A stretch of DNA of 64,000 nt from Blastocatellia bacterium (lineage in GTDB: Bacteria; Acidobacteriota; Blastocatellia; UBA7656; JADIYM01), in NCBI GenBank assembly GCA_021463145.1, contig JAJTWZ010000020.1, forward strand, positions 1 through 64,000, in the 5' to 3' direction. The notes below the pieces were generated by a model. The model did not search any database, had not been told where the DNA came from, and saw only the letters and a program-made list of their open reading frames with translations. Every line of letters starts with the position of its first letter. Within the stretch, counting starts at the first letter, position 1. A program made the position numbers and the translations under genes. Positions 7,113-24,286 of the stretch are shown here, in pieces.

Positions 7113-9749
7113 ATGCCCAAAGAGCTGATCATCAGTGCGAACGCGCACGAAAAGAAGGTCGCCATCCTCGAAGATGGCGTCGTTACTGAGTTCTACGTCG
7201 AACGGGTCAACGAGAACACCGGCGTAGTCGGAAATATCTACAAAGGCCGGGTGATGAAGGTGCTGCCAGGTATGCAGAGCGCCTTTGTGGACATCGGCCT
7301 CGAACGCGACGCGTTCCTCTACGTCTCGGACTTCCTCGACGTGCTCGAAGACGAAGCGATCGAGATCAAGTCCGACGCACCCGGTTCCGCCGGGCGCGGC
7401 AAGCGCGAAGCGGCCGATGCAGCCGACGAGGCGCAGGCGGCGGCGGAAGCCGAAGCGACCACGGCCGGACGCTCGTCCGGGCGTGATCGCGATCGAGATC
7501 GCGATCGCCGGACTGCGCGCGACTCGAAACCGGAAGCGGTGCCCGAAGCAGAAGAAGACAACGCGGAATTCCCTCCGGCCGACACGCCGGCGCCGATGGA
7601 GGCTGTACGGGACGACGACGAGGACGATGACGACGACGAGTCCGACGCCGATGCGGCAGGTGGCCGGCGTCGGCGCCGCCGCCGGCGCCGACGCCGCGGC
7701 GACGAAGTGGCGCCCGGGATGGACGAGTACGACGTGCCGCAGAAGGCGCAGGTGCTGGACTCGTTCGGTGACGACGATGCCAGCCGCCTGCGGATCGAGA
7801 CGGCATACGAGCACATCGAGGAAGTGCAATTCGCCGACACAGCGCCTTCGGTTCTCGAGGCTGGGGCGTCGAACTTCGAGCGGGTTTCCGACGACGACGC
7901 GCCGCCGCGAGAACGCGCGCGCAGGGATGTGCCTCAGATCGTCGAGTCCGCACCGTCTTTCCCGACCTATGAAGCACCGGTCGAAGAGATGCCGGCGCCG
8001 ATGCTCGTTGCTATCCGCGACGAAGACGACCTCGAGGCATCGGTCGACGCCGCGCTCGACGCCGTGGCCGCCCCTGCAAAGGGACGTTCGCGCAAGGCGA
8101 AGGCCGAACCGGCGGCAAAGGCCGCGCCGAAAACGGCTGCAAAGAAGACCGCCGCGAAGAAGGACAAGGACGCCGACTCTTCCGGCGACGAGGCTCCGAA
8201 GAAGGCCCGCGCGAAGAAGGCTCCCTCCGCGAAGGCGGCATCGAAGCCCCCGCGAGGCAAAGCGCGCAAGTCGGCGTTGGCCGACGCCGAAGCAGAGGTC
8301 TCCGATTCGCCAAGCCGCGCCGAGATGTCGACGCGAAGGGGAGGACGTGGACGGCGCCGGTCGTCGGGCCCTCGCGAGGGTGACGGAGGAACGCCGGAAG
8401 CTGCAGCCGCGGAAAGGTCACCGGAACCGGAGAAGAAGGAGCGCACCGAGCGAAACGATCGCGGCGAGCGGTCCGACCGGCCGGAGCGCGAGCGCCCGGC
8501 GTCCGGCAACGGGCGCAGCCGGCGGAGCGAACCGCTGATCAGCGAACTGCTGCGAGAAGGACAGGAGATCACGGTTCAGATCGCGAAGGAACCGATCGCG
8601 AAAAAAGGTGCGCGCATAACGTCGCACATCGTGCTTCCGGGCCGCTTCCTCGTGTTCATGCCCACCGTCACGCACGTCGGCGTCTCGCGCAAGGTTACCT
8701 CGGAGGGCGAGCGCACCCGCTTGAAGAAGACGGTCTCGGCTCTGAAGGAGAAGGAGGGCGGACCGGGAGGATTCATCGCTCGAACCGCTGCAATTGGACA
8801 GTCGGACGAGGACCTGCTCGACGACATGCGCTATCTGCAGCGGACGTGGGCGGAACTGAAGCGCGAGGCGGACCGGCGAAAGGCTCCGGCCCTGCTGCAC
8901 CGCGACCTCGACCTCGTCCAGCGCATCCTCCGCGACCAGATCTCGGATGACTTCTCCGCGATCCGTGTCGACAACGAGATCGAGTACGCGAGAATCGTTG
9001 ACTTCGTCAACCGTGTGCAGCCGAGGCTCGTGCGGCGCGTGAAGCTCCACACTCGCGACGAGTCGATCCTCGAGACGTACGGCGTGCAGGCCGAGCTCGA
9101 CAAGGCCGTGAAGCCGCGCGTGTGGCTGAAGTCCGGCGGCTACATCGTGATCAACCAGACCGAGGCGCTCGTCTCGATCGACGTGAACACCGGGAAGTTC
9201 GTAGGAAAGTCGGACCGGCTCGAAGACACGATCACGCGGACGAACATGGAGGCGGTACGCGAGATCGTCCGCCAGGTCCGGTTGCGCGATCTGGGCGGGA
9301 TCATCGTCATCGACTTCATCGACATGGAGGAGCGCCGTAACCGGATGAAGGTCACGCAGGCGCTCGAAGCGGAGATGCGGGCGGACCGGTCGCCATCGAA
9401 GGTGCTCGGCTTCAACGACTTCGGGCTCATAATCATCACGCGGAAGCGTGTGAAGCAGAGTCTGGAGCGCACGCTCTGCAGCCCGTGCCCGTACTGCCAG
9501 GGAGCCGGGCTCGTGAAGTCGACGCAGACGATGGCGTTCGAGATCCTGACCGAGGCACGACGGATCTCGAAGCACCTGGACGGACAGGCGGACGACGTGA
9601 CTTTGCGTGTCAGCCCGGGTGTCGCGCAGGCTTTGCGCTCGAGCGAATCGGCGATCTTCGAGGAGATCGAGGCGCATTTCTCTTCGCCGGTTCGGCTCAA
9701 GGTGGATCACGAACTGCATCAGGAGCAGTTCGACTTCGCGATCCTGTAA
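7113..9749 (+). CDS. Ribonuclease E/G family protein with a large low-complexity insertion
   Basis: Split S1 region (GNIYKGRVMKVLPGMQSAFVDIGLERDAFLYVSD ... GARITSHIVLPGRFLVFMP); IDVNTGKFVG; IVIDFIDM; CPYCQGAG zinc link. Confidence 0.93.
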   Translation: MPKELIISANAHEKKVAILEDGVVTEFYVERVNENTGVVGNIYKGRVMKVLPGMQSAFVDIGLERDAFLYVSDFLDVLEDEAIEIKSDAPGSAGRGKREAADAADEAQAAAEAEATTAGRSSGRDRDRDRDRRTARDSKPEAVPEAEEDNAEFPPADTPAPMEAVRDDDEDDDDDESDADAAGGRRRRRRRRRRRGDEVAPGMDEYDVPQKAQVLDSFGDDDASRLRIETAYEHIEEVQFADTAPSVLEAGASNFERVSDDDAPPRERARRDVPQIVESAPSFPTYEAPVEEMPAPMLVAIRDEDDLEASVDAALDAVAAPAKGRSRKAKAEPAAKAAPKTAAKKTAAKKDKDADSSGDEAPKKARAKKAPSAKAASKPPRGKARKSALADAEAEVSDSPSRAEMSTRRGGRGRRRSSGPREGDGGTPEAAAAERSPEPEKKERTERNDRGERSDRPERERPASGNGRSRRSEPLISELLREGQEITVQIAKEPIAKKGARITSHIVLPGRFLVFMPTVTHVGVSRKVTSEGERTRLKKTVSALKEKEGGPGGFIARTAAIGQSDEDLLDDMRYLQRTWAELKREADRRKAPALLHRDLDLVQRILRDQISDDFSAIRVDNEIEYARIVDFVNRVQPRLVRRVKLHTRDESILETYGVQAELDKAVKPRVWLKSGGYIVINQTEALVSIDVNTGKFVGKSDRLEDTITRTNMEAVREIVRQVRLRDLGGIIVIDFIDMEERRNRMKVTQALEAEMRADRSPSKVLGFNDFGLIIITRKRVKQSLERTLCSPCPYCQGAGLVKSTQTMAFEILTEARRISKHLDGQADDVTLRVSPGVAQALRSSESAIFEEIEAHFSSPVRLKVDHELHQEQFDFAIL

Positions 9750-9873: not shown

Positions 9874-10740
9874 TCATTTTTCTACGATGTCGGCCTTGAC
9901 GGAGGACACGATGGCGAGCAGGTCCTTCTTTTCGGCCTCGGGGACGCTGAATGCGTCGAGCGCCGCAACCAGGTGACCGGCCGCCGTGTTCCAGTCGTCC
10001 TCGCTGATGCCCATTCCCTTGTGGGCCGTCTTCATGTCCCGCCCTGTATAGATACAGGGCCCACCGGCGGCGGCGCATACCTGGTCGACGATGTGTTGCC
10101 TGAGCTTGCCGGCGCTGTCCTGGCTGAGCCCCGCGAGGAAACGTTTCATCTTCGGATCGCCGTCCATCCGCTTGATGAACTCGTCGATGACCGCGGCAAT
10201 CGCGTCGTAACCTCCAAGCCGTTTGTAGAGCGACTTCGCCGCTCCGGGCGTCTCTTCCATGGTGACCGTGTCGGAAACGTAGACCCACGTTCCGCCGATC
10301 TTACGGCGCCAGTCGACGGCCCGCAGCGTGTAGGTTCGCTCGGCGGCGCCCTTCATCTTTTCGGTCACGCGCACGTGCCCGATCCACTGCACGACGTCGC
10401 CGTGCACGATGTAGGTGCCGTCGACGGTCTCGAGCTTCAGCGATTCGGCCGCCGAGAACAGACCGGCGTACACTCCTTTCACTGCATCGATTCCCATCGC
10501 GACGGTGCCGTCCGGACCGACGAGCATGACTCGCGGATCGTTCCAGTAGCAGGCCGCGGCCGCTTCTGCGTTGCGGGAATTGAAGGCGGCCTCGAAGCGC
10601 TTCGAGAGCTCCATGGCTTCGACGAGGATCTTGCCCTCCTTCGAGGACTTCTGTGGAAGCGCGAATGCCGGACTGGCGGCAACCGACGAGAGAAGCATGA
10701 TCGCCAGAGCGACCGGGCAACGGCGGAAGAGCGAGGACAT
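9874..10740 (-). CDS. Exported NTF2/SnoaL-like domain fused to a group I truncated haemoglobin domain
   Basis: Signal peptide; AMELSKRFEAAFNSRNAEAAAACYWNDPRVMLVGPDG (NTF2-like); LYKRLGGYDAIAAVIDEF ... GGPCIYTGRDMKTAHKGMGI (trHb). Confidence 0.85.
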   Translation of the reverse strand: MSSLFRRCPVALAIMLLSSVAASPAFALPQKSSKEGKILVEAMELSKRFEAAFNSRNAEAAAACYWNDPRVMLVGPDGTVAMGIDAVKGVYAGLFSAAESLKLETVDGTYIVHGDVVQWIGHVRVTEKMKGAAERTYTLRAVDWRRKIGGTWVYVSDTVTMEETPGAAKSLYKRLGGYDAIAAVIDEFIKRMDGDPKMKRFLAGLSQDSAGKLRQHIVDQVCAAAGGPCIYTGRDMKTAHKGMGISEDDWNTAAGHLVAALDAFSVPEAEKKDLLAIVSSVKADIVEK

Positions 10741-10860: not shown

Positions 10861-11910
10861 CTACCCCTGCCCTGCCGTCGTGTGCTCGGAGCGCTCGATC
10901 TGTCTCGGCGAAAGCAACTCGGTCCTGGTTTCACGCTCGGCGCCACGGACCTCGCGCAACGCGTGCACGAAAGCCGACGCCCAAACGAACGCACCAGCCA
11001 GGTAGCCTGGCGACAGCACGAGCAGCTTCAAAAACAGGACGAAGTCGTGACGCGCCAGCCACACGAGCGCGCGCGCAAGCCTCACAGGCGGCACCAGGAC
11101 GCCAAGCCAGGGATGCCGTATCAGGTAGGGCATCAGCCATCCAAGCGCCGGATACGCGCGAATGACCTCGAACGGTGGGTTCATCCTGTGTCTGGCAAGC
11201 GCCGAACTCTTGCCAAGCGTCCGCTGGTACTGGATGACCTTTCTCCATCCGACCCGGTTCTGGTGCGTCACCCTGATGCCCGGATCGAACAGAATCCGCT
11301 CCCCCGCAATCGACAGCCGCCAGTTGTAGAGCAGGTCTTCGCTTGCCCTCACGTCGTCGAAGAGCCCGAACCGTTCGAATACTTCCCGGCGGTAACAGAT
11401 GTTCGCGGTCGGAATCGTGAACACCTCGCGGCGCGGCGATGTCGGAATGAACTCACGGAACTCGAGGAGGTAGCCAATGAGGCCGCTCGCACTTCCGGGG
11501 GTACCGTCGCAGATTGCGCCTCCAACGGCGGCATACTCCCCGGTGCTGTGCGCCTCTACCACCCGTTCGAGCAAGTCGGGTGCGGCTACACAGTCCGCAT
11601 CGATCATCGCCAGCAGCCCGGCACGGGCCTCGCGGATCGCGGCGTTGCGCGCCGTTCCGGGATAGGCCCTGTGGCCGAGCCTGATGAGACGAACCTGCGG
11701 AAACTGCTTCTCCACTATCGCAGCCGTCAAGTCGGCCGAACTGTCCGCAACGATGACCTCGAAGTCGAACGGTGGACTCTGGCTGACGATAGACTCGAGG
11801 CACGCCGCGATCGTCGCCTCACCGTTGTAGACGGGAATGACCACGGAAAGGCACGGCGACCTCCCCTCTCGACCGTCGTGGCTCACGATACCCAGGATCA
11901 ACGCCTCCAA
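10861..11910 (-). CDS. Family 2 glycosyltransferase
   Basis: LSVVIPVYNGEATIAACLESI; MIDADCV; membrane-like C-terminus. Confidence 0.9.
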   Translation of the reverse strand: MEALILGIVSHDGREGRSPCLSVVIPVYNGEATIAACLESIVSQSPPFDFEVIVADSSADLTAAIVEKQFPQVRLIRLGHRAYPGTARNAAIREARAGLLAMIDADCVAAPDLLERVVEAHSTGEYAAVGGAICDGTPGSASGLIGYLLEFREFIPTSPRREVFTIPTANICYRREVFERFGLFDDVRASEDLLYNWRLSIAGERILFDPGIRVTHQNRVGWRKVIQYQRTLGKSSALARHRMNPPFEVIRAYPALGWLMPYLIRHPWLGVLVPPVRLARALVWLARHDFVLFLKLLVLSPGYLAGAFVWASAFVHALREVRGAERETRTELLSPRQIERSEHTTAGQG

Positions 11911-12207
11911 AACTCTGCGACAGACGACCTCGGGGGCAGCAAGTGCAGTCCAGCACTATAGTTGACACGCCCCGCTCCCGTCCACGTACCGCTTCGGAAT
12001 GAGTCGCGCTCCGCTCCGAATGATACCAGTGTCGCCCTGGCTGACCGGATCGCAGCAGGACTACGCGACGAACCATTCAATCGGATGGATGCGGCGGAGA
12101 AATCTTGGCGACTCCTTCCACTCGGAGCACGGCGTCACCGCCTTTTCTGCCCATTCGAGCGGCCTCGTAGCTATAATGCGCGTTTGAGTTCCGCAACTTT
12201 TCACGAC

Positions 12208-12987
12208 ATGACGACCGCCGGCCAGGTTCGATCGCTGTGGCGATACCGCGAACTGCTCCGCAATCTGGTGGTGCGCGATATCAAGGTCCGGTACAAGCGC
12301 TCCGTGCTCGGTTTCGCATGGATGCTGCTGAATCCTCTCATCTCCATGATCGTGTTCTCGATCATTTTTCGCGAAGTATTCGGGATGGAGCAGGACTATC
12401 CGCTATATGTGATCTCCGCGCTTCTTTTCTTCAATCTGTTCTCGCTCGGCAGTTCGCAGGGGCTCAACAGCATCGTCGCGTCGTCGGGCCTGATTCGGAA
12501 GGTTGCCGTGCCGAAGTCGATCTTCCCGCTTGCCTCGGTGCTGGCCAACCTCGTCAACTTCGGGCTTTCGCTCATACCACTTGCGGCAGTCATGATTTTC
12601 ACCGGAGCGAAACTCACGCCGGCGCTCCTTGTGGTACCGGTCGGAATCCTGTCGATCTCGCTGTTTACCTACGGCATTTCACTCGCACTTGCGACGGCAA
12701 ACGTCTTTTATCGAGACGTGAGGTGGTTCTACGACTCGGCGCTTCTCATCCTCTTCTACGTCACGCCCGTGATCTATCCGGCGAAGGTCGTGCCCGAGCA
12801 GTTCCGTTTCCTGCTGGCGCTCAATCCGTTGACGACCATGCTCGAGGTCTTTCGCGCCCCGATCTACGAAGGTGTCCTGCCGGCGCCAGCGGCGCTCGGC
12901 GCCTCGTTGCTGTACGGACTGGGGGCGACGATCGTTGGCTGGATGGTATTCCACCGGTACGAAGACCGGTTCATCAACTTCATCTGA
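12208..12987 (+). CDS. wzm: ABC-2 type polysaccharide/O-antigen export permease (Wzm-like)
   Basis: RELLRNLVVRDIKVRYKRSVLGFAWMLLNPL and multi-TM; internal ATG at 12208 preferred. Confidence 0.88.
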   Translation: MTTAGQVRSLWRYRELLRNLVVRDIKVRYKRSVLGFAWMLLNPLISMIVFSIIFREVFGMEQDYPLYVISALLFFNLFSLGSSQGLNSIVASSGLIRKVAVPKSIFPLASVLANLVNFGLSLIPLAAVMIFTGAKLTPALLVVPVGILSISLFTYGISLALATANVFYRDVRWFYDSALLILFYVTPVIYPAKVVPEQFRFLLALNPLTTMLEVFRAPIYEGVLPAPAALGASLLYGLGATIVGWMVFHRYEDRFINFI

Positions 12988-13000
12988 CCGGAAGCACGCG

Positions 13001-14605
13001 ATGGCCGCACCGAGCATTCCCTCAACGTCAGCCGCGCCGGGCACGCCGTCCGCAGCAGCTCAGGAGGCGGCGGCCTCTGGGGTCGCGATTCGCATCGACG
13101 ACCTGTCGGTCCGCCTGTCGCTTCAGAAGGAGGTCGTTCTCTCGTTGCGAGAGACGGCCATCCGATGGATCCAGCGCCGTCCCGTCGAGGTAGAGGAGTT
13201 CTGGCCGGTCCGCAACGTGAGTTTCGACGTCCAGCGCGGCGAGGCATTCGGCATCGTGGGCCGCAACGGCGCCGGCAAGTCGACAGTGCTGAAGGTCATC
13301 GCCGGCGTGCTGTCGCCGACGCTCGGAACGGTCGACGTGCGTGGACGCATCGCGCCGCTACTCGAGCTCGGCGCCGGGTTCGACTCCGAGATGACGGGCC
13401 GGGAGAATATCTACCTCTACGGCTCGCTGCTCGGGTTCCCGAGGCAGAAGCTCGACGAGCGGTTCTCCCACATCGTCGAGTTTGCCGAGTTGGAACATTT
13501 CATAGACGTGCCGCTCAAGAACTACTCGTCGGGAATGGCGTCGCGGCTCGGGTTCGCAGTCGCGACGGACGTGGACCCCGACATCCTCATCGTGGACGAA
13601 GCGCTCACGGTTGGCGACGCGCGCTTTCAGTTGAAATGCATGGAACGGATCGAGCTGTTCCGCCAGCGTGGCGTGACGATACTCTTCGTTTCTCACAATC
13701 CAGACCAGGTTAGACGGCTGTGTTCCCGCGCCTTGTGGCTCGACAATGGCGTCGTCCGGCTGCTCGGCGGCGTCGATGAAGTCGTGGACGGCTACACGGC
13801 GGTGGAGTACGAACTCCCCAGGCGCAGGACGGCCTGGACCAAGCCCGATCTTCCGTCGTTCGTCGAAGAGTCGGGCTCTGCCGGGAAACAGTCGGCGGTT
13901 TCGGTCGCGTACCGGTCGCCGAACGAGAATCGGCAAACCCCGCCGGTGCACGGCGAGTACGACTTCATCGACTTTACGCTCGTGGACGCAAGGTCGATGG
14001 AATTCTGCCGTGAAGCGTTCGGGGGCCGGGGACTGTCGGTTTCGAACAACATCGCGGTAGCCGAGCGAGTCCGGGCTGCGGGCGGCGATGCAGTGACGGC
14101 TGACCTCTCCGTCATCGATTTCCCCGACGACTCGTTCTCGTTCGTTTCGCTGATGGACTCGATTCACTTGCTGCCGGGACTCGAAGCCATCTCCCACGTG
14201 CTGGCGAGCTCCGCTCGCTGGGCGCGCGACTTCATATTCGTCCGGATGCCGAGCTACGAGGATGAAGAATATCTTCGAGCGTTGGGCCTCAAGCACTATT
14301 GGCACGACTGGTCGTGGTATCCGACGCACCCGCGCGTGGACCAGATCTCCAGCATCCTTCAATCTCTCGGTCTGGAGCAGTACCACGTGTCTCACCGCAG
14401 TCCGGCGCTTTCGAGCGACGCGGCTTCCATCCTTCCGCTTGCCGCTCCGCCTGACCAGGGCGTTTACGACGCAGAAATTCACGGTCCGAAGCTGTCGATC
14501 GAGTTTCCGCGGCCGATTTACGGCCAGATCGACGTTTTCATTGCCCTGCGTCGCTTCGAGACCGCCCAATGGCATGACATCATCACGAAAGGCACGCAGT
14601 CCTGA
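13001..14605 (+). CDS. wzt: ABC transporter ATPase (Wzt-like) with C-terminal methyltransferase-fold domain of degenerate motif I
   Basis: Walker A GRNGAGKST; LKNYSSGMASRLGFAVATDVDPDILIVDEAL; C-terminal ~220 aa aligns with the N-terminus of the 20253-21746 protein. Confidence 0.88.
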   Translation: MAAPSIPSTSAAPGTPSAAAQEAAASGVAIRIDDLSVRLSLQKEVVLSLRETAIRWIQRRPVEVEEFWPVRNVSFDVQRGEAFGIVGRNGAGKSTVLKVIAGVLSPTLGTVDVRGRIAPLLELGAGFDSEMTGRENIYLYGSLLGFPRQKLDERFSHIVEFAELEHFIDVPLKNYSSGMASRLGFAVATDVDPDILIVDEALTVGDARFQLKCMERIELFRQRGVTILFVSHNPDQVRRLCSRALWLDNGVVRLLGGVDEVVDGYTAVEYELPRRRTAWTKPDLPSFVEESGSAGKQSAVSVAYRSPNENRQTPPVHGEYDFIDFTLVDARSMEFCREAFGGRGLSVSNNIAVAERVRAAGGDAVTADLSVIDFPDDSFSFVSLMDSIHLLPGLEAISHVLASSARWARDFIFVRMPSYEDEEYLRALGLKHYWHDWSWYPTHPRVDQISSILQSLGLEQYHVSHRSPALSSDAASILPLAAPPDQGVYDAEIHGPKLSIEFPRPIYGQIDVFIALRRFETAQWHDIITKGTQS

Positions 14606-14631: not shown

Positions 14632-16092
14632 ATGGATCAGACGAAGCCCTCTGCCGACAACGCACCGCCAGCCCCGACGCCTTCGCGCAGCGAAGCGTTG
14701 TTCGAGCGGTCAATTGCGCCGCCAGTGGCGGCCTCGAGGGCCAATCCTCTCTCGGCGTGGCGGCTTCACGCGCGATTCGGCCCCGTAGTTGCCGCTCTCG
14801 AACGATTGCTGCGTCACGGCCGTCAGGCTTCGGCATCGCGCGTGCTCGCCCTCGGCCGTCGAAGCCCGGCCCTGGAGTCGCTGCTTCAACAATCGTTGTC
14901 AGCCAGTGCGGCCGGGCCTGCGCCGGCAGTCGAGCTCAATTGGATTGACGGGTCCTTGTCATTGCCATTGCCATACGAGGATGCGGCGTTCGACGCTGTC
15001 GTTGCGATAGATGCGCTTCCACTCGTCCCACCGTCGGCGCGCGAGCGCACCGTGCTCGAGCTTGGACGGGTCGCACGCCTGGGCGTCGTGCTGTCCTCGC
15101 CGTTCGACGGGCCGAATGTCGTTGCCGCCGAGCGCGCCGTCAATGGGCTGCATCGCTCTTCGCGCGGAGTGGATCATCCGGAGATTGGCCGGCACCTGGA
15201 GTACGGACTGCCCGATCTGGCGCTTACGTGCAGCTGGCTCGAACGCGTGTTCGCCCACGTGGCCACGATGCCGGTGGAGCACTTGCACGTGTGGCAGTCC
15301 ATGGCGTCGCTCGAACTCTTCGAACATTCCGAACCCACTGCCGCGGACGCAGCAGACGCGACATTCTTTCCGATCTCCGTTGGCGTCGGGGAGGGCGATC
15401 CCGCGTACCGGACGCTCGCCGTTGCCTCGAACCGGCCGTATGCGGTCGAGTTCCGTCCGCCGGGCGCCGGAAACGCCGAGTTCACCGCCCTCGCAATGCA
15501 TGTCGCGCTGGAAGGCGCAGCGCAGCGCCAGAGCCTTGACCGGCTCTTCCTCGCCGTTACGGCGGATCGGGAACGGGAGCGGCAAGAGTTCAGCGAGACA
15601 GTCGCCAGCCTGGCTGCCGAATTGCACGAGCGTGAGGCCATTGGCGAGAAGCTGCAGAGGGACCTTCGCGAGCGCGACCTGACCGTTGACCACCTGCAAG
15701 CGACGGTTGCCGAGCTTGAGCAGCGGATCGAGCTGACGGACGACCACGTCGAGAATCTGGAGGCCGCGATCGAGGCGACGCGCCTGCACGCCCGCAATCT
15801 CGATGCAATGCGCGATGAACAGCGGGCTCGAGCCGACGATCTCCAGGTCACCGTCGACGGCATGCACGATTCGGCAACCACATCGGCGCAACACATCGAA
15901 AATCTCGAGCAACTGGTCGCCACGCTGAGGGCGGAACTTTCCGAAGCAAGCGATCGGTGCCTCGAGGCCGACGCCCGGGCGTCGCAGGCGGTACAGAAGT
16001 TGGATGAGGTGTTCTCCAGCCGCGGCGGACGAGCGCTCGGTGGCTACGTTCGGATGAAACGGAGGCTGCTGGGGAAGGGCAAGGGGGAGTAA
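14632..16092 (+). CDS. Methyltransferase-like (motif I-degenerate) domain plus long coiled coil with basic C-terminus
   Basis: RVLALGRRSPAL; LPLPYEDAAFDAVVAIDALPLVPPSARERTVLELGRVAR; C-terminal ~160-aa heptad-rich region ending GGYVRMKRRLLGKGKGE. Confidence 0.72.
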   Translation: MDQTKPSADNAPPAPTPSRSEALFERSIAPPVAASRANPLSAWRLHARFGPVVAALERLLRHGRQASASRVLALGRRSPALESLLQQSLSASAAGPAPAVELNWIDGSLSLPLPYEDAAFDAVVAIDALPLVPPSARERTVLELGRVARLGVVLSSPFDGPNVVAAERAVNGLHRSSRGVDHPEIGRHLEYGLPDLALTCSWLERVFAHVATMPVEHLHVWQSMASLELFEHSEPTAADAADATFFPISVGVGEGDPAYRTLAVASNRPYAVEFRPPGAGNAEFTALAMHVALEGAAQRQSLDRLFLAVTADRERERQEFSETVASLAAELHEREAIGEKLQRDLRERDLTVDHLQATVAELEQRIELTDDHVENLEAAIEATRLHARNLDAMRDEQRARADDLQVTVDGMHDSATTSAQHIENLEQLVATLRAELSEASDRCLEADARASQAVQKLDEVFSSRGGRALGGYVRMKRRLLGKGKGE

Positions 16093-16245
16093 GGTGAGGC
16101 GCCCTTCCCCCCCCGAGCGCGGCAGGTTCGTCCCAGGCGGGAGGACGGCTCTCCCGAGCATCGATGCACTCCCTGGTCAAGGAGTCCCGATTCCCGGAGG
16201 GACGCACGTAATTCCCGGTGTCGCGAGAGGGAGAGGTCAGTCTGT

Positions 16246-19200
16246 ATGTGCGGGATAGCCGGCATCCTACTGAGCGACACAACCTCGCCGAATGCTCAGA
16301 GCCGGTTTGCGCGTCTCGACGCGATGGTCGAAGCCCTCGTCCGCAACGATCGAACAGCTCGACGCAGACTATCGGGAGAGAGAATCGCAATCGGCGAGTG
16401 CGGGCCGGCAATCGGCGGCCTGCCCGAATCCCGCCAGCTCGTTTCGAACGAGGATGGCACTATCTGGCTGGCGTTTGACGGCGAGTGCTTCAACGGGCGG
16501 GAACTGCGTGACGCCCTGATGGGCTCCGGTCATCGATTTGCGACCGGTCACGCCGCCGAGGCCGTCGTCCACGGATACGAGGAGTGGGGCATTCGAGGCG
16601 TCGCCGAGCGACTTGTTGGAGCCGCGGCCTTCTGCCTCTGGGACGCGAGAGCGGGAAAGGCATTCCTCGTTCGCGACCGGCTCGGGGTCAAGCCGCTCTA
16701 CTTCACGGCACGAGCTCCCGCACTGGCTTTTTCTACCGGACTACGGTCACTGGCGCGCTCCGGCCTTCTCTTGCCCAAACTGGACGAAGAGGCCCTGTGG
16801 GCACACCTCTACTGTGGGTTTACGCCTCTATCGAGAACGCTGGTCGCGGGCGCACAGCGCTTGCCAGCAGCGCACATTCTCGAATGGTCAGCCGAGTCTG
16901 GCGCGACGAGCGTCTCGCGCTACTGGGACTTCCCATTTGAGGACGAGGATTGCCGTCTGACGATGGCCAGCGCGGCGGGCGAAGTGAGGGACCTGCTCGA
17001 CGACGCCGTCCTCGGGCAGACGGGCGACGGCCCGGCCGGATGTTGGCTCACCGGAGAACTCGATTCGTCGGCAGTAGCGGCGTTTGCGGCGCGGCACTCG
17101 AATCGCTCGATCCGGGCGTTCTCGCCTCTGCTTCCAGGTATCGGCGAGACAGCATTGAACGCCGCTCGCCGTGTTGCGAAGCACATCGGCGCCGAACATA
17201 CGACCGCTCAGTTCGACGAGGCTGCTTACATCGCCGGGTTCGACCAGACGCTCGGCAGCACCGATGAGCCGGCTTCTGACGATTCGGCGCCGGTCGCGGG
17301 ACTGCTCTCGGAGTTTGCAGCAACCGGTGTTGGGATAGTACTCACTGGCTTCGGCGCGGATGAGCTCTTTGGCGGCCGTAAGTCTCATCGCCGTTTCGTG
17401 TTCGGCGAGCCCACGCTGCCAGCGGGCGCCCGATCCGAGCGACGCCGCAGCTTGTCCAACTTGCGAGAAGCTCTGGCCGTCCGGGCCGGAATCCACGCGC
17501 CGGCTCCGGTCCTGGACCTGACAAGCCCGCACAGCGGAATCCCGTATTCAATACAGCCCGAGTTCCTGTGGTGCCTGTTGAATCCGGACCGTCGTCCGTC
17601 GCTCGAAGTGTTCCGCGGATCTCTCGAGCGGATCGAAGGAGACATCGATGCTGGCCCTCCGGGCTCGCTGCGTCGGGCAATGGCCATCGATATCCAATTG
17701 CGGCTCGGCCAGGGAAACCTGATGACGGCCGGTGCGGAGGCGAGGTCCGCAGGCATCGATTTGAGGGCGCCATTTCTCGACCACCGCTTAGTGGAATATG
17801 CCTTCCGGCTGCCGGACCGGTTCAAGGTTGAACGCGATCAGGGCAACCTGGTGCTGCGCGAAGCCTTGCGCGGACTGTTGCCCGACGACGTCGTCGATGA
17901 CCGCTCGCGCGGTCCGCGTCTGCCGCTGGCGTCGTGGTTCCGCGGTCCGTTGCGTGACTACATTCGTGAAGCGCTGCTCGACTCCCACCTGGTCGACGAT
18001 GGAATGTTCACGAGGCAGATGCTGGAGGCGATACTCGTTGCGCATTTCGACCTGGACGTCGACATGTCGCGAACGATCGGATCGCTCGTGCGCATAGACC
18101 GATGGTGGCGGGCAGTTCGGGACGAGATCGTCGCGGCGCTGCCGCCCGACGGGGCAATTCCAGCCGGACCTCGCACCAGTGAGCCGACGGTCGACATCCT
18201 GATTCCGGTCTACGAGAACTTCAATCTGGTCCGCGACTGCGTCCGGTCGATTCGGGCATTCACCAGAATGCCGTTTCGCGCGATTCTGCTCGACGACAGG
18301 TCAAGCGATGCGACGCAGGAGAAGCTGCGACGGCTGGTGGCCGACGACTCGCGCTTCGAGCTCGTCTGCAACGAGGAAAACCTCGGATTTCTGGCCAACT
18401 GCAACCTTGGTTTCGAGCGTTGCTCCGCCGACTACATTGTCCTGCTCAACTCGGACACCGTAGTTGCCCCTGGGTGGCTGGAGCGCATGGTTGCCTGTGC
18501 CGAGAGCGATCCGGCGATCGCGATCGTAAATCCGCTCACGAACGAATCGGGCAACACCTCCGTCCGATTCGCGCCAGGGCTGAACCTGCTGACGATGGCG
18601 AAGGCGATTGCGGAGTCGTCTCCGCGCGATTACCCGGATCTCACAACGGCCGTCGGGATGTGCATGCTCGTGCGACGCTCGGCCACGCAGTTGCTCGGTA
18701 CGTTCGATCCGGCGTACCTGAATGCGTACTGCGAAGAGTCGGACCTCTGCATGCGATTCACAGAAGCAGGGCTGCGCGTGGTCGCCGCCGACGATGCCTT
18801 CATCTATCACAAGGGTTGGGCTTCGTACGACGAGCTGAAGAAGAAGCGCTACTACGAGCACAACCGGGCGATCTTCGACGCTCGCTGGTCGGTTCCGTAC
18901 GATCGCGATTGGGGGAGATATGCCCGGCGCGATCCACTCCAGCCTACGCGCGACCGGTTGTTGCGCTTTTCGATCGGTCGAGAAGATGCCGACAACCTCG
19001 ATCTGATCGATGCCCGATCGTCTCGGCTCTCGACAAGCGCGACCCTGCACGCCGTCGGCGATGGCAAGCGTGCGTCGTCGGCTGCGGTTCTGCTTCCCGG
19101 GCGATCGCCAATCGGCGGAAAGCCGGAATACGACTCGTTCCTGCAGAACCGCGCGGCCAATCCGCTCATGCGATTCGACGAGCGACGGCTGGCCTTACCG

Positions 19201-20313
19201 ACCTCAGCAACGATTCGGTCCCTGCCTTCGCTCGACCGCAACCGGCTGAGGATCACGTTTCTGGTTGCCAGTCTCCATCTTTCCGGAGGTGTCATCCAGA
19301 TCGTGCAACTGGCGCGAGAGATGCTGCTGGCCGGTCACGACGTCCGGATCGTCACCGAGTCGCCAGAGGACACTCCCGAAAAGCAGAACCTGTGGTTGCA
19401 GCCCCTCGTCTACAGGAACCGCCGCCACCTCATCGAGAACTTTCCCGAGAGCGACGTGGTCGTCGCCACCTTCTGGGTCACGGCTCATCGATATCTGCGC
19501 GAGTTGCGTGAGCGATACGACTTCGTTTCCGCATACTACATCCAGGACTACGAGGCGTGGTTCTACCCGGAGTCGGACTGGCTCAATCGAAACAACGTCA
19601 TCCATTCGTATTCGCGAGCCGAACACCACATCGTGATGTCGAGATGGCTGGCGAACCTCGTCGACGCGCACGGCCCACGCTGCGAGATTGTCTCGCTGGG
19701 ACTGGATCTGGGCGTCTTTTATCGGAGGGATACTCAACCGGCAACGCATCCGCGGGTGCTTTCGGTAGCCGCCATCGGGCCGGAAGTAGCCCGCCGTGGC
19801 TTTCCGGACACCGTCGAGGCTTTCCGGCGCGTGAAGGAGGCCCGGCCCGATGTCGAAATCGTTCTTTACGGGACGGAGCGTGAGCAGCTGCCCGGCCTGC
19901 CGTTCGAGGTGACTTGCGCCGGCCGCATCTACGATCAGAACAAGGTCGCGGAACTGATGTCGTCAGTGGATGTCGTGCTGGATGCTTCGCTCTGGCAGGG
20001 CTTCGGCCGGCCGGGACTCGAGGCGATGGCCTGTGGCGCCGTCCCGGTCCTCACGAATTTCGGCGGATTGAACGAGTATGCCGTCGACGGCGTAAATTCG
20101 CTGCTCGTGCCGCCAGGCGATCCCGCCGCCGCTGCAACGGCAATTCTCGACCTGCTCGGCGATCCAACTCGATACGCCAGGATGCGGAACGAAGGACTGG
20201 CAACCGCTCCCAGATTCGCCCACACCCTGGAAGCGGAGCGTCATCTCGAACTCTACGAGCGATGGGTATCCGAGAAGTTCCCGCAGAGAGGACGCGAGTT
20301 GTCGATGCGATAG
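16246..20313 (+). CDS. Three-domain fusion: AsnB-type glutamine amidotransferase / GT2 / GT4
   Basis: N-terminal MCGIAGIL (class II GATase Cys2); WLTGELDSSAVAAFA PP-loop-like; PTVDILIPVYENFNLVRDCVRSI (GT2); LRITFLVASLHLSGGVIQIVQLAREML and GFGRPGLEAMACGAVPV (GT4). Confidence 0.9.
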   Translation: MCGIAGILLSDTTSPNAQSRFARLDAMVEALVRNDRTARRRLSGERIAIGECGPAIGGLPESRQLVSNEDGTIWLAFDGECFNGRELRDALMGSGHRFATGHAAEAVVHGYEEWGIRGVAERLVGAAAFCLWDARAGKAFLVRDRLGVKPLYFTARAPALAFSTGLRSLARSGLLLPKLDEEALWAHLYCGFTPLSRTLVAGAQRLPAAHILEWSAESGATSVSRYWDFPFEDEDCRLTMASAAGEVRDLLDDAVLGQTGDGPAGCWLTGELDSSAVAAFAARHSNRSIRAFSPLLPGIGETALNAARRVAKHIGAEHTTAQFDEAAYIAGFDQTLGSTDEPASDDSAPVAGLLSEFAATGVGIVLTGFGADELFGGRKSHRRFVFGEPTLPAGARSERRRSLSNLREALAVRAGIHAPAPVLDLTSPHSGIPYSIQPEFLWCLLNPDRRPSLEVFRGSLERIEGDIDAGPPGSLRRAMAIDIQLRLGQGNLMTAGAEARSAGIDLRAPFLDHRLVEYAFRLPDRFKVERDQGNLVLREALRGLLPDDVVDDRSRGPRLPLASWFRGPLRDYIREALLDSHLVDDGMFTRQMLEAILVAHFDLDVDMSRTIGSLVRIDRWWRAVRDEIVAALPPDGAIPAGPRTSEPTVDILIPVYENFNLVRDCVRSIRAFTRMPFRAILLDDRSSDATQEKLRRLVADDSRFELVCNEENLGFLANCNLGFERCSADYIVLLNSDTVVAPGWLERMVACAESDPAIAIVNPLTNESGNTSVRFAPGLNLLTMAKAIAESSPRDYPDLTTAVGMCMLVRRSATQLLGTFDPAYLNAYCEESDLCMRFTEAGLRVVAADDAFIYHKGWASYDELKKKRYYEHNRAIFDARWSVPYDRDWGRYARRDPLQPTRDRLLRFSIGREDADNLDLIDARSSRLSTSATLHAVGDGKRASSAAVLLPGRSPIGGKPEYDSFLQNRAANPLMRFDERRLALPTSATIRSLPSLDRNRLRITFLVASLHLSGGVIQIVQLAREMLLAGHDVRIVTESPEDTPEKQNLWLQPLVYRNRRHLIENFPESDVVVATFWVTAHRYLRELRERYDFVSAYYIQDYEAWFYPESDWLNRNNVIHSYSRAEHHIVMSRWLANLVDAHGPRCEIVSLGLDLGVFYRRDTQPATHPRVLSVAAIGPEVARRGFPDTVEAFRRVKEARPDVEIVLYGTEREQLPGLPFEVTCAGRIYDQNKVAELMSSVDVVLDASLWQGFGRPGLEAMACGAVPVLTNFGGLNEYAVDGVNSLLVPPGDPAAAATAILDLLGDPTRYARMRNEGLATAPRFAHTLEAERHLELYERWVSEKFPQRGRELSMR

Positions 20314-21746
20314 GCGACGATCCTGTCGGCCGGCCCGTTGGTATTCGTGTCGCGGAGAATCCACAGGCCCCATTCCGGGACGTAGACTCCGATAGAGTCG
20401 ATACCGTCGCCATCCCAGTCGCCGACAACGGGCAGACCGCCTGGCGGACCGAATACGAAGCTCGTGTCCTCGCTGTCGAAACTCCCTTCGCCCCTCAGAT
20501 ACCAGGCGCCATCTGCCGGATCGTAGAGACCGACTTTGTCGCGGCCACTGCCGTTCCAATCGCCGGCAATCGCAAGCCGGTTCTCCTGAGGAGGGCCGAA
20601 CTGGAACTCCTCGTCCGCAGGACCGGGTCCGTTGGAATGGCGAACCTTCCAGCGCGACGCATCGGAATGGTAAACGCAGATCGTGGAAATTCCAGACCCG
20701 GTCCAGTCCCCGGTGGTTGGCTGCCCCCCGGGCGACGAGAACGACAAGGTAACGTCGGCGAGCCCGGCATCCTGCGAGTTCCGGAGAAAGAAGCTGGCGT
20801 CGGCCGGATCGTAGGCGCCAATCCCTTCGTGTCCGTCGCCGTCGAAGTCTCCAACCAATGGCAGCCAGCCGCGGCCTTCGGCTCCGTACTTCGCCGTCCT
20901 CTCCGAGCCATCACGGCCGCGCAATCTCCAGATCGACGTGGAAGGATCATAGCCGCCGAGATCCGTCGCCAATGGGCCGGCTGGAGGCTTCCGTGACGAG
21001 ACAATTCGAATCGGCCATTGCGGCGAACTCTCGTAAAGATCCGAAAAAACGATGGCTCGCCAGGCGTCGTCGGTCATCTCCGGGTTCAGCCTGACGAAGA
21101 TATCGAATTGCGTGTAGATCGGCCGGTCGAATCGGACGAACGGCTTCGGCCCGTGGACCGCCTCGTCGTAAGTGACCGTATCCCGGGGAGCGGTGATCGG
21201 GATAATCTGGTCGAACGAAGAGTCGGCAATAAGCAGTCGTGGCACTATCGCGTACTCGGTCCACCCCATTCGCTCGAAGAACCTCTCGAAGTCCTCGATC
21301 CGCATCATTGCCGGATGTCCGGTCCAGTCGGTCCAGGCAAGACGGAGGCCCACCGATTCGAGGTATTCGGATTCCTCGAAGGACGGATGTCGAATGAAGG
21401 CGAAGTCCCGCGCGGCGCGTGCGAATCGCTCCAGCACGTCGAAGGAAATGGCGTCGCCAGGCAGATGCTCGAGGAAATCCATCGCCGAAACGAATCGCAC
21501 GCAACGGTCCGGTACCGTGGTTGCGACGACGTCAGCTTCGACGACCGGGTAACCTGCCTGGCGCGCTCCCGCAACGTCCTTTGCGTCCAGTTCCAGTCCA
21601 AGCGACGACTTCGCGCCGAACCGGCGAATGCAGTGATCCGTCGATCCGCCGGTGCCACAGCCGAGGTCGATGAACTCGAATTCGCCCCTGGAAAGTCCGT
21701 CAATGGCTCGCTGGATGTCCACGGCCCACCGAGTATGCGAGAGCAC
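20253..21746 (-). CDS. Class I SAM methyltransferase fused to five ~46-aa GDWDGDG/IGVYD repeats
   Basis: FEFIDLGCGTGGSTDHCI motif I; C-terminal repeats GDFDGDGHEGIGAYDPADASFFL, GDWNGSGRDKVGLYDPADGAWYL, GDWDGDGIDSIGVYVPEWGLWIL. Confidence 0.85.
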   Translation of the reverse strand: MLSHTRWAVDIQRAIDGLSRGEFEFIDLGCGTGGSTDHCIRRFGAKSSLGLELDAKDVAGARQAGYPVVEADVVATTVPDRCVRFVSAMDFLEHLPGDAISFDVLERFARAARDFAFIRHPSFEESEYLESVGLRLAWTDWTGHPAMMRIEDFERFFERMGWTEYAIVPRLLIADSSFDQIIPITAPRDTVTYDEAVHGPKPFVRFDRPIYTQFDIFVRLNPEMTDDAWRAIVFSDLYESSPQWPIRIVSSRKPPAGPLATDLGGYDPSTSIWRLRGRDGSERTAKYGAEGRGWLPLVGDFDGDGHEGIGAYDPADASFFLRNSQDAGLADVTLSFSSPGGQPTTGDWTGSGISTICVYHSDASRWKVRHSNGPGPADEEFQFGPPQENRLAIAGDWNGSGRDKVGLYDPADGAWYLRGEGSFDSEDTSFVFGPPGGLPVVGDWDGDGIDSIGVYVPEWGLWILRDTNTNGPADRIVAYRIDNSRPLCGNFSDTHRS

Positions 21747-23464: not shown

Positions 23465-24286
23465 ATGAAGGCAGCAGGAACGATCCTGAGATTCGGAGCA
23501 CTGGCCATTGCAGTCGCCACGGCCGCGTGCTCCCCGGCAACCGAGACCGCCAACAAGCCTGCGACGAACACCGGCCCGGCGCCCGTTGCTTCGAAGAAGG
23601 ACACGCCCGGCGTCTACGACCCGGCGGCCGGAACCTTCTGGGTCAGCGTGACCGGTGCCCCGGAAGCGAAGGCCGTGCAGTTCGGCGCCCCGAACATGGT
23701 TCCGGTGGTGGGCGACTGGAACGGCGATGGCGTCACGTCGCTCGGCCTGTACCAGGCCGCCGACGGGTCGTTCTTCCTGTCCGACAAGCTCGAACCGGGC
23801 GCTGCCACGATGACGTTCACCTTCGGCGCCCCCAACCAGAAACCGATCGCCGGCGATTGGGACGGCGACAACAAGGATACGATCAGCGTCTACGCGCCGC
23901 AGTCAGGAACGTTCTTCATTACCAACACGAACGCCGCGGGACCCGCATCGATCGTGGCAACGTTCGGCGCCTCGGACATGCTTCCGATCGCCGGCGACTG
24001 GGATGGTGACGGCAAGGACTCGATCGGAGTCTACGATTCGAAGTCAGGCACGTTCTTCCTGTCGAACGTGATCGAGAACCCAATGGCCTTTGCGACGTTC
24101 GCGTTTGGCGCGCCGAACCTCGTGCCGGTTGCCGGCGACTGGGACGGCGACGGGAAGGACACCGTCGGCGTTTACGACGCGGCGACGGCAACCATCCATA
24201 CGGCGTCGGAGAACACGGCATCGGCCAAGGCCACTTCGTCCGTCGCAGGACGACCCGGCCTCGTTCCAATCGTCGGCCGGTGGTAG
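23465..24286 (+). CDS. Predicted lipoprotein made of five ~46-aa FGAPNxxPVAGDWDGDGKDSIGVYD repeats
   Basis: Lipobox-like AVATAAC; repeated GDWNGDG/GDWDGDN/GDWDGDG/GDWDGDG units. Confidence 0.85.
   Translation: MKAAGTILRFGALAIAVATAACSPATETANKPATNTGPAPVASKKDTPGVYDPAAGTFWVSVTGAPEAKAVQFGAPNMVPVVGDWNGDGVTSLGLYQAADGSFFLSDKLEPGAATMTFTFGAPNQKPIAGDWDGDNKDTISVYAPQSGTFFITNTNAAGPASIVATFGASDMLPIAGDWDGDGKDSIGVYDSKSGTFFLSNVIENPMAFATFAFGAPNLVPVAGDWDGDGKDTVGVYDAATATIHTASENTASAKATSSVAGRPGLVPIVGRW

Follow-up and report, generated by a model that had tools for sequence, protein, structure and literature searches.

Gene content and order of the locus

The window analyzed here is a 64,000-nucleotide stretch of contig JAJTWZ010000020.1 from a Blastocatellia bacterium (GenBank assembly GCA_021463145.1). 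It contains a gene for a long coiled-coil protein in a locus that also encodes a Wzm/Wzt exporter (Table 1). The coil-protein open reading frame is complete (486 aa, ATG start), with exactly the boundaries originally predicted for it. It begins 26 bp past the stop codon of the Wzt-type ATPase gene that precedes it, and the large amidotransferase-glycosyltransferase gene starts about 150 bp downstream of it on the same + strand. Because no terminator-like site was found on the + strand between 11800 and 16400, a Wzm-Wzt-coil protein-glycosyltransferase operon would be the natural reading. The permease reading frame opens at 11962, and the start given in Table 1 is the first ATG just upstream of the ABC2 domain. 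The Wzt is the sole Wzt of its genome at E ≤ 1e-30. An antisense ORF at 14959-16161 was rejected as most likely a high-GC by-product, as the homology sits on the + strand.

The gene downstream of the coil protein encodes a chain of 1355 aa, and the NCBIfam model closest to its amidotransferase portion is of the XrtA/PEP-CTERM system type. Its 3' end overlaps the convergent methyltransferase gene by 61 bp. Elsewhere in the window, a gene at 7113-9749 on the + strand encodes an RNase E/G family protein in which several hundred residues of charged, low-complexity sequence interrupt the family matches ahead of the catalytic core. The product of 9874-10740 on the - strand reads by eye like a SnoaL-like domain together with a group-1 truncated hemoglobin.

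Table 1. Genes and sequence features of the coil-protein locus, in window coordinates
Feature	Coordinates	Strand	Basis
GT2-like glycosyltransferase, divergent neighbor	10861..11910	-	read by eye; same-fold matches to GT2 genes of related loci
Wzm-type ABC-2 permease	12208..12987	+	PF01061 and Wzm/RfbD-type NCBIfam match
Wzt-type ATPase without Wzt_C; C-terminal degenerate methyltransferase domain at 13943-14557	13001..14605	+	
Coiled-coil protein with degenerate methyltransferase head, 486 aa	14632..16092	+	ORF; homologous family on same strand
Head, residues about 68-268, class-I methyltransferase-like	14833..15435	+	profile matches
Motif I of head, VLALGRRSP	14842-14868	+	in frame
Coiled coil, residues 282-461	15475..16014	+	AlphaFold2 single-sequence model, heptad score
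Basic amphipathic tail, residues 462-486	16015..16089	+	charge, hydrophobic moment, alignment to relative
Asparagine-synthase-type amidotransferase fused to GT2 and GT4; putative partner glycosyltransferases	16246..20313	+	
Intact methyltransferase with FG-GAP-like C-terminal repeats; sister of Wzt-fused domain	20253..21746	-	

Domain layout of the coiled-coil protein

Searched alone, the head returned a weak match to solved methyltransferases, with RebM (3bus) as the closest chain (E = 1e-4), and a weak, below cut-off match to a Pfam methyltransferase model. A profile of the head family matched solved methyltransferases at E = 1.4e-7, and 8 of the 14 members of the family alignment match Pfam methyltransferase models. 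On these profile matches we place the coil protein, by descent, in the class-I SAM methyltransferase superfamily and in a patchily distributed head family of the phylum.

The head family shares LDVGG as its motif I, LDVLEH as a further conserved motif and, on the acceptor side, a block of its own (APF..., AE..., EH...GLP). In the window head LDVGG is replaced by LALGRRSP and LEH by LPL. The acid and two of the glycines of motif I are lost, one glycine (G75) is kept, and the acid at the β2 position may survive as E101. The original prediction had considered catalysis doubtful from a motif I that reads VLALGRRSP, and these substitutions uphold that doubt: the motif is in frame, and a frameshift was rejected as its origin because no other frame restores the motif. 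At the sequence level the head thus lacks the SAM motif of a catalytically competent enzyme. Within the SAM-binding half, only 6 of the 21 residues conserved in other members are kept (the lowest count, with 10–17 in the others), as against 17 of 28 in the acceptor half, which lies within the 16–25 range of the others; the N-terminal columns of this alignment are less surely aligned. Judged by these losses, SAM binding by the head is improbable. The nearest relative of the protein (G003) retains the motif I acid and has likewise lost LEH. A Pfam scan of the coil protein found no kinase domain, as had been anticipated, although this carries no weight either way because the E. coli O8 WbdD methyltransferase has none (PMC3482155).

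In an AlphaFold2 single-sequence model, residues 282-461 form one unbroken helix that is followed by a break at residues 462-466 and a second helix at 467-481. Block means of pLDDT are about 86–93 over residues 311-410, and the head part of this model, which was built with no alignment, is without usable confidence. Prolines are absent from residue 278 to residue 486. The heptad score of the coil is 29.7 compared to 16.7 ± 2.9 for shuffled sequences, with none of 1000 shuffles reaching 29.7, and its hydrophobicity has a periodicity of 3.5 residues (p = 0.025). A heptad-rich helix had been predicted after residue ~310; the structure prediction and heptad score support the long coil but move its start about 28 residues earlier, to residue 282.

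The tail (residues 462-486, SSRGGRALGGYVRMKRRLLGKGKGE) is basic, with a net charge of +6 within an 18-residue stretch, and its hydrophobic moment of about 0.54–0.59 is moderately amphipathic, in line with the basic C-terminal tail that had been described. Its counterpart in the nearest relative, by alignment, is the segment SSLGWRLLSLYGPIKYRYL that follows the coil there. The coils of the L023, L024, L031 and L043 proteins are likewise followed by similar segments, in which a tryptophan is conserved; this tryptophan is a glycine in the window protein. Profile matches, the AlphaFold2 helix, heptad score and tail charge together bear out the proposed order of methyltransferase domain, coil and basic tail. 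The coil-plus-tail module is also present on glycosyltransferase proteins that lack this head (L043:3633-6080 and L004:2983-6308), and the module alone therefore does not imply a ruler.

Relatives of the head and the partner Wzt

The head family occurs in 18 of the 396 genomes of the phylum that were searched, the window's own included, and among the searched genomes of the window's order one other carries a relative. No head-family relatives were found on plasmids or in viral contigs. The exact layout was seen in the window's genome only. In the nearest relative the head, coil and tail run on into GT2 and GT4 modules within a single chain of 1141 aa, and the GT2 part of the window's amidotransferase-glycosyltransferase is 30% identical to the GT2 of this protein. 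With its GT2-GT4 pair in the next gene, the window would encode a split form of the same machine. Glycosyltransferase modules, their type read from sequence, also follow the coil in L023 and L024 (GT4-like, after proline-free coils of about 520–550 residues) and in L033 (GT2-like). The L031 chain stops after a ~157-residue coil with a basic tail, and short-coil members of the family likewise finish in basic tails. Across the family the proline-free coil ranges from about 45 to 550 residues. Nine relatives (L025-L026, L028-L030, L032 and L035-L037), as read from sequence and with a Pfam scan for L035 only, have two methyltransferase-like domains per chain, in the order canonical methyltransferase, beta-rich stretch, head family, and short coil with basic tail.

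The head protein and a Wzm/Wzt pair are at most 15 kb apart in 7 of the 11 genera with informative contigs, compared to 0.21 expected, a value derived from 2–6 Wzt genes per genome under a null that ignores the clustering of such genes in glycan loci. In the remaining 4 genera, among them the one to which the nearest relative belongs, the head protein has no Wzt nearby. Relatives away from an ABC exporter would suit a generic linker that joins glycan enzymes by a coiled coil, its head functionless and decaying, and that takes no part in chain-length control, as would the wide range of coil lengths and the occurrence of the coil and post-coil motif on glycosyltransferases without this head. However, the acceptor half of the window head is conserved as in its relatives and the SAM half is not, which is unexpected from even decay, and the reading frame is intact; we consider such a linker improbable.

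The neighboring Wzt adds two points that were absent from the original prediction: it lacks a cap reader, and it contains a further degenerate methyltransferase domain besides that of the coil protein. Wzt_C (PF14524) was found in all 8 Wzts scanned from linked loci (E = 2e-25 to 1e-6, the weakest match falling just below the gathering score); in the window's Wzt the scan found ABC_tran and no Wzt_C. The C-terminal part of this Wzt shares 37% identity with the product of the convergent methyltransferase gene in the same cluster, and the best matches of a rough, low-confidence two-sequence model of the Wzt-fused domain are solved methyltransferases. Its motifs are degenerate (FIDFTLVDARS and SIHLL). 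Those of the sister enzyme are intact (FIDLGCGTGGS and DFLEHLPG), and a second sister copy on contig 85 keeps the motif I glycines and LEH. A stand-alone enzyme of this family in another genome (G299), with largely kept motifs (FLDFGASTGGS and LLEHL), divergently adjoins genes for a Wzm and a Wzt without Wzt_C. This arrangement hints that the sister methyltransferase family may work with Wzts that lack the Wzt_C reader.

Aligned by hhalign, the head and the Wzt-fused domain match with E = 3e-7 and 14% identity. That the two are mutual copies was ruled out, as they are merely distant superfamily relatives. Loss of the same sites would thus have occurred in two different methyltransferase lines whose genes are neighbors here.

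Comparison with capped export systems and a proposed role

Two classes of ABC-exported glycan are distinguished: capped, with a terminator and a carbohydrate-binding domain on the Wzt, and uncapped. In the capped systems known so far, a methyl, methyl-phosphate or Kdo cap is attached by a head mounted on the distal end of a coil that determines chain length; an amphipathic region close to the membrane brings in the polymerase, and the cap is read by the Wzt accessory domain (PMC11231755, PMC3482155, PMC9445017). Wzt_C, the domain that reads the terminal cap, is essential for export in these systems (PMC9445017).

WbdD of E. coli O9a and O8 terminates chains with methyl-phosphate or methyl and has a coiled coil as a ruler. 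The window protein resembles it in having a methyltransferase-fold head at its N terminus, then a coiled coil and a putatively membrane-near C-terminal region, and in its ABC-transporter locus; RebM, the closest solved chain to the window head, is also one of the two structures named as closest to the methyltransferase of WbdD (PMC3482155). The likeness to WbdD that was originally proposed therefore holds for layout and for the ABC-exporter glycan locus but does not extend to descent, as the head-family profile search of the PDB did not list WbdD even at E ≤ 10. The K. pneumoniae O7 protein ORF6 has the order methyltransferase-kinase-CBM-coil-GT2-GT2 (PMC11231755). Its succession of head, coil and glycosyltransferases matches that of the fused relative G003, and its published orthologues include forms that stop after the coil (PMC11231755). 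The window protein differs from ORF6 in that its head is followed by the coil with no other folded domain in between, its glycosyltransferases are in a separate gene and its head is probably inactive. The window's Wzt, like those of A. aeolicus and E. coli O9a (PMC9445017), belongs to an ABC glycan exporter and has an accessory domain C-terminal to the ATPase, but this domain is a degenerate class-I methyltransferase and not the Wzt_C jelly roll. On the basis of layout we classify the coil protein as WbdD/ORF6-type. We do not assign it as WbdD because a search for sequence homology, a SAM motif and a Wzt_C-bearing partner found none of the three; the missing kinase, in turn, is a feature it shares with the O8 protein. 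A literature search on inactive methyltransferases in glycan export found no papers.

E. coli O8 WbdD, a methyltransferase without a kinase, caps by methylation (PMC3482155), and the window protein could be an active terminator of this kind with a divergent SAM site and a coil that serves as a true ruler placing the cap. Its layout and locus fit this explanation, as do the retained motif I glycine and the β2 acid possibly kept as E101. Considering the loss of the motif I acid, two glycines and LEH, and a partner Wzt without the Wzt_C cap reader, we regard active capping as unlikely. With a dead head, the classic mechanism in which the cap is added at coil length would be impossible.

The explanation we favor, with middling confidence, is that the protein is a membrane-tethered coil scaffold or spacer of an ABC-exported glycan complex, the head of which binds the glycan end, probably without methylating it. 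This proposal builds on computed features: the domain layout and long coil, the lost motifs, the linkage to an exporter, the glycosyltransferase fusion in a relative and the missing Wzt_C. Weighing against it are the occurrence of the exact layout in a single genome, the 4 genera whose head protein has no Wzt close by, the β2 acid that may persist as E101, and the presence of the coil-plus-tail module on glycosyltransferases lacking this head. The protein would have descended from a methyltransferase-headed coil protein. Its basic amphipathic tail would anchor that end of the protein to the cytoplasmic membrane, close to the glycosyltransferases, with the GT2-GT4 pair of the next gene recruited to act in trans; the tail itself and the GT2-GT4 fusion in the nearest relative are the observations that bear on this predicted membrane association and polymerase recruitment. 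The roughly 180-residue coil would set the head at a fixed distance, where the retained acceptor-side surface of the family may bind the growing glycan end and, the SAM-binding signature being absent, probably does not methylate it. By analogy with the known systems, control of chain length by the coil protein is plausible.

Recognition of the glycan end might then proceed through glycan binding by the two pseudo-methyltransferases, or through the intact sister enzyme, rather than through the customary methyl cap and its Wzt_C reader. That pseudo-methyltransferases have replaced both the writer and the reader of the cap, giving end recognition without a chemical cap, is a tentative idea that we think rather unlikely; in it, the glycan end would be bound by the dead head on its coil and by the dead methyltransferase domain fused to the Wzt ATPase. 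A locus that retains the coil scaffold while its head is dead and its Wzt bears another accessory domain would represent an intermediate or third type of system, and would allow the spacer function of the coil to be studied separately from capping chemistry.

Pseudo-enzyme/enzyme pairs are known among methyltransferases, and the head could instead be a docking partner of the intact methyltransferase, or of another enzyme, with capping done by that enzyme and its placement by the coil protein. The cluster does encode an intact sister of the Wzt-fused domain, and a member of the sister family adjoins Wzm/Wzt in G299. However, the intact gene is on the opposite strand, its product has FG-GAP-like repeats, which are more usual outside the cytoplasm, and it belongs to a subfamily distant from that of the head. 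We consider docking a rather remote explanation, on a par with the generic linker, and retain the membrane-tethered scaffold as the better account.

The combination of a methyltransferase domain with FG-GAP-like repeats occurs twice in the genome, in the intact sister enzyme and at L042:8534-10339 (- strand), with 41% identity over the methyltransferase part. In both, a cytoplasmic-type enzyme is joined to repeats that are usually extracellular, which is odd. A putative FG-GAP lipoprotein is encoded near the window copy, at 23465-24286.
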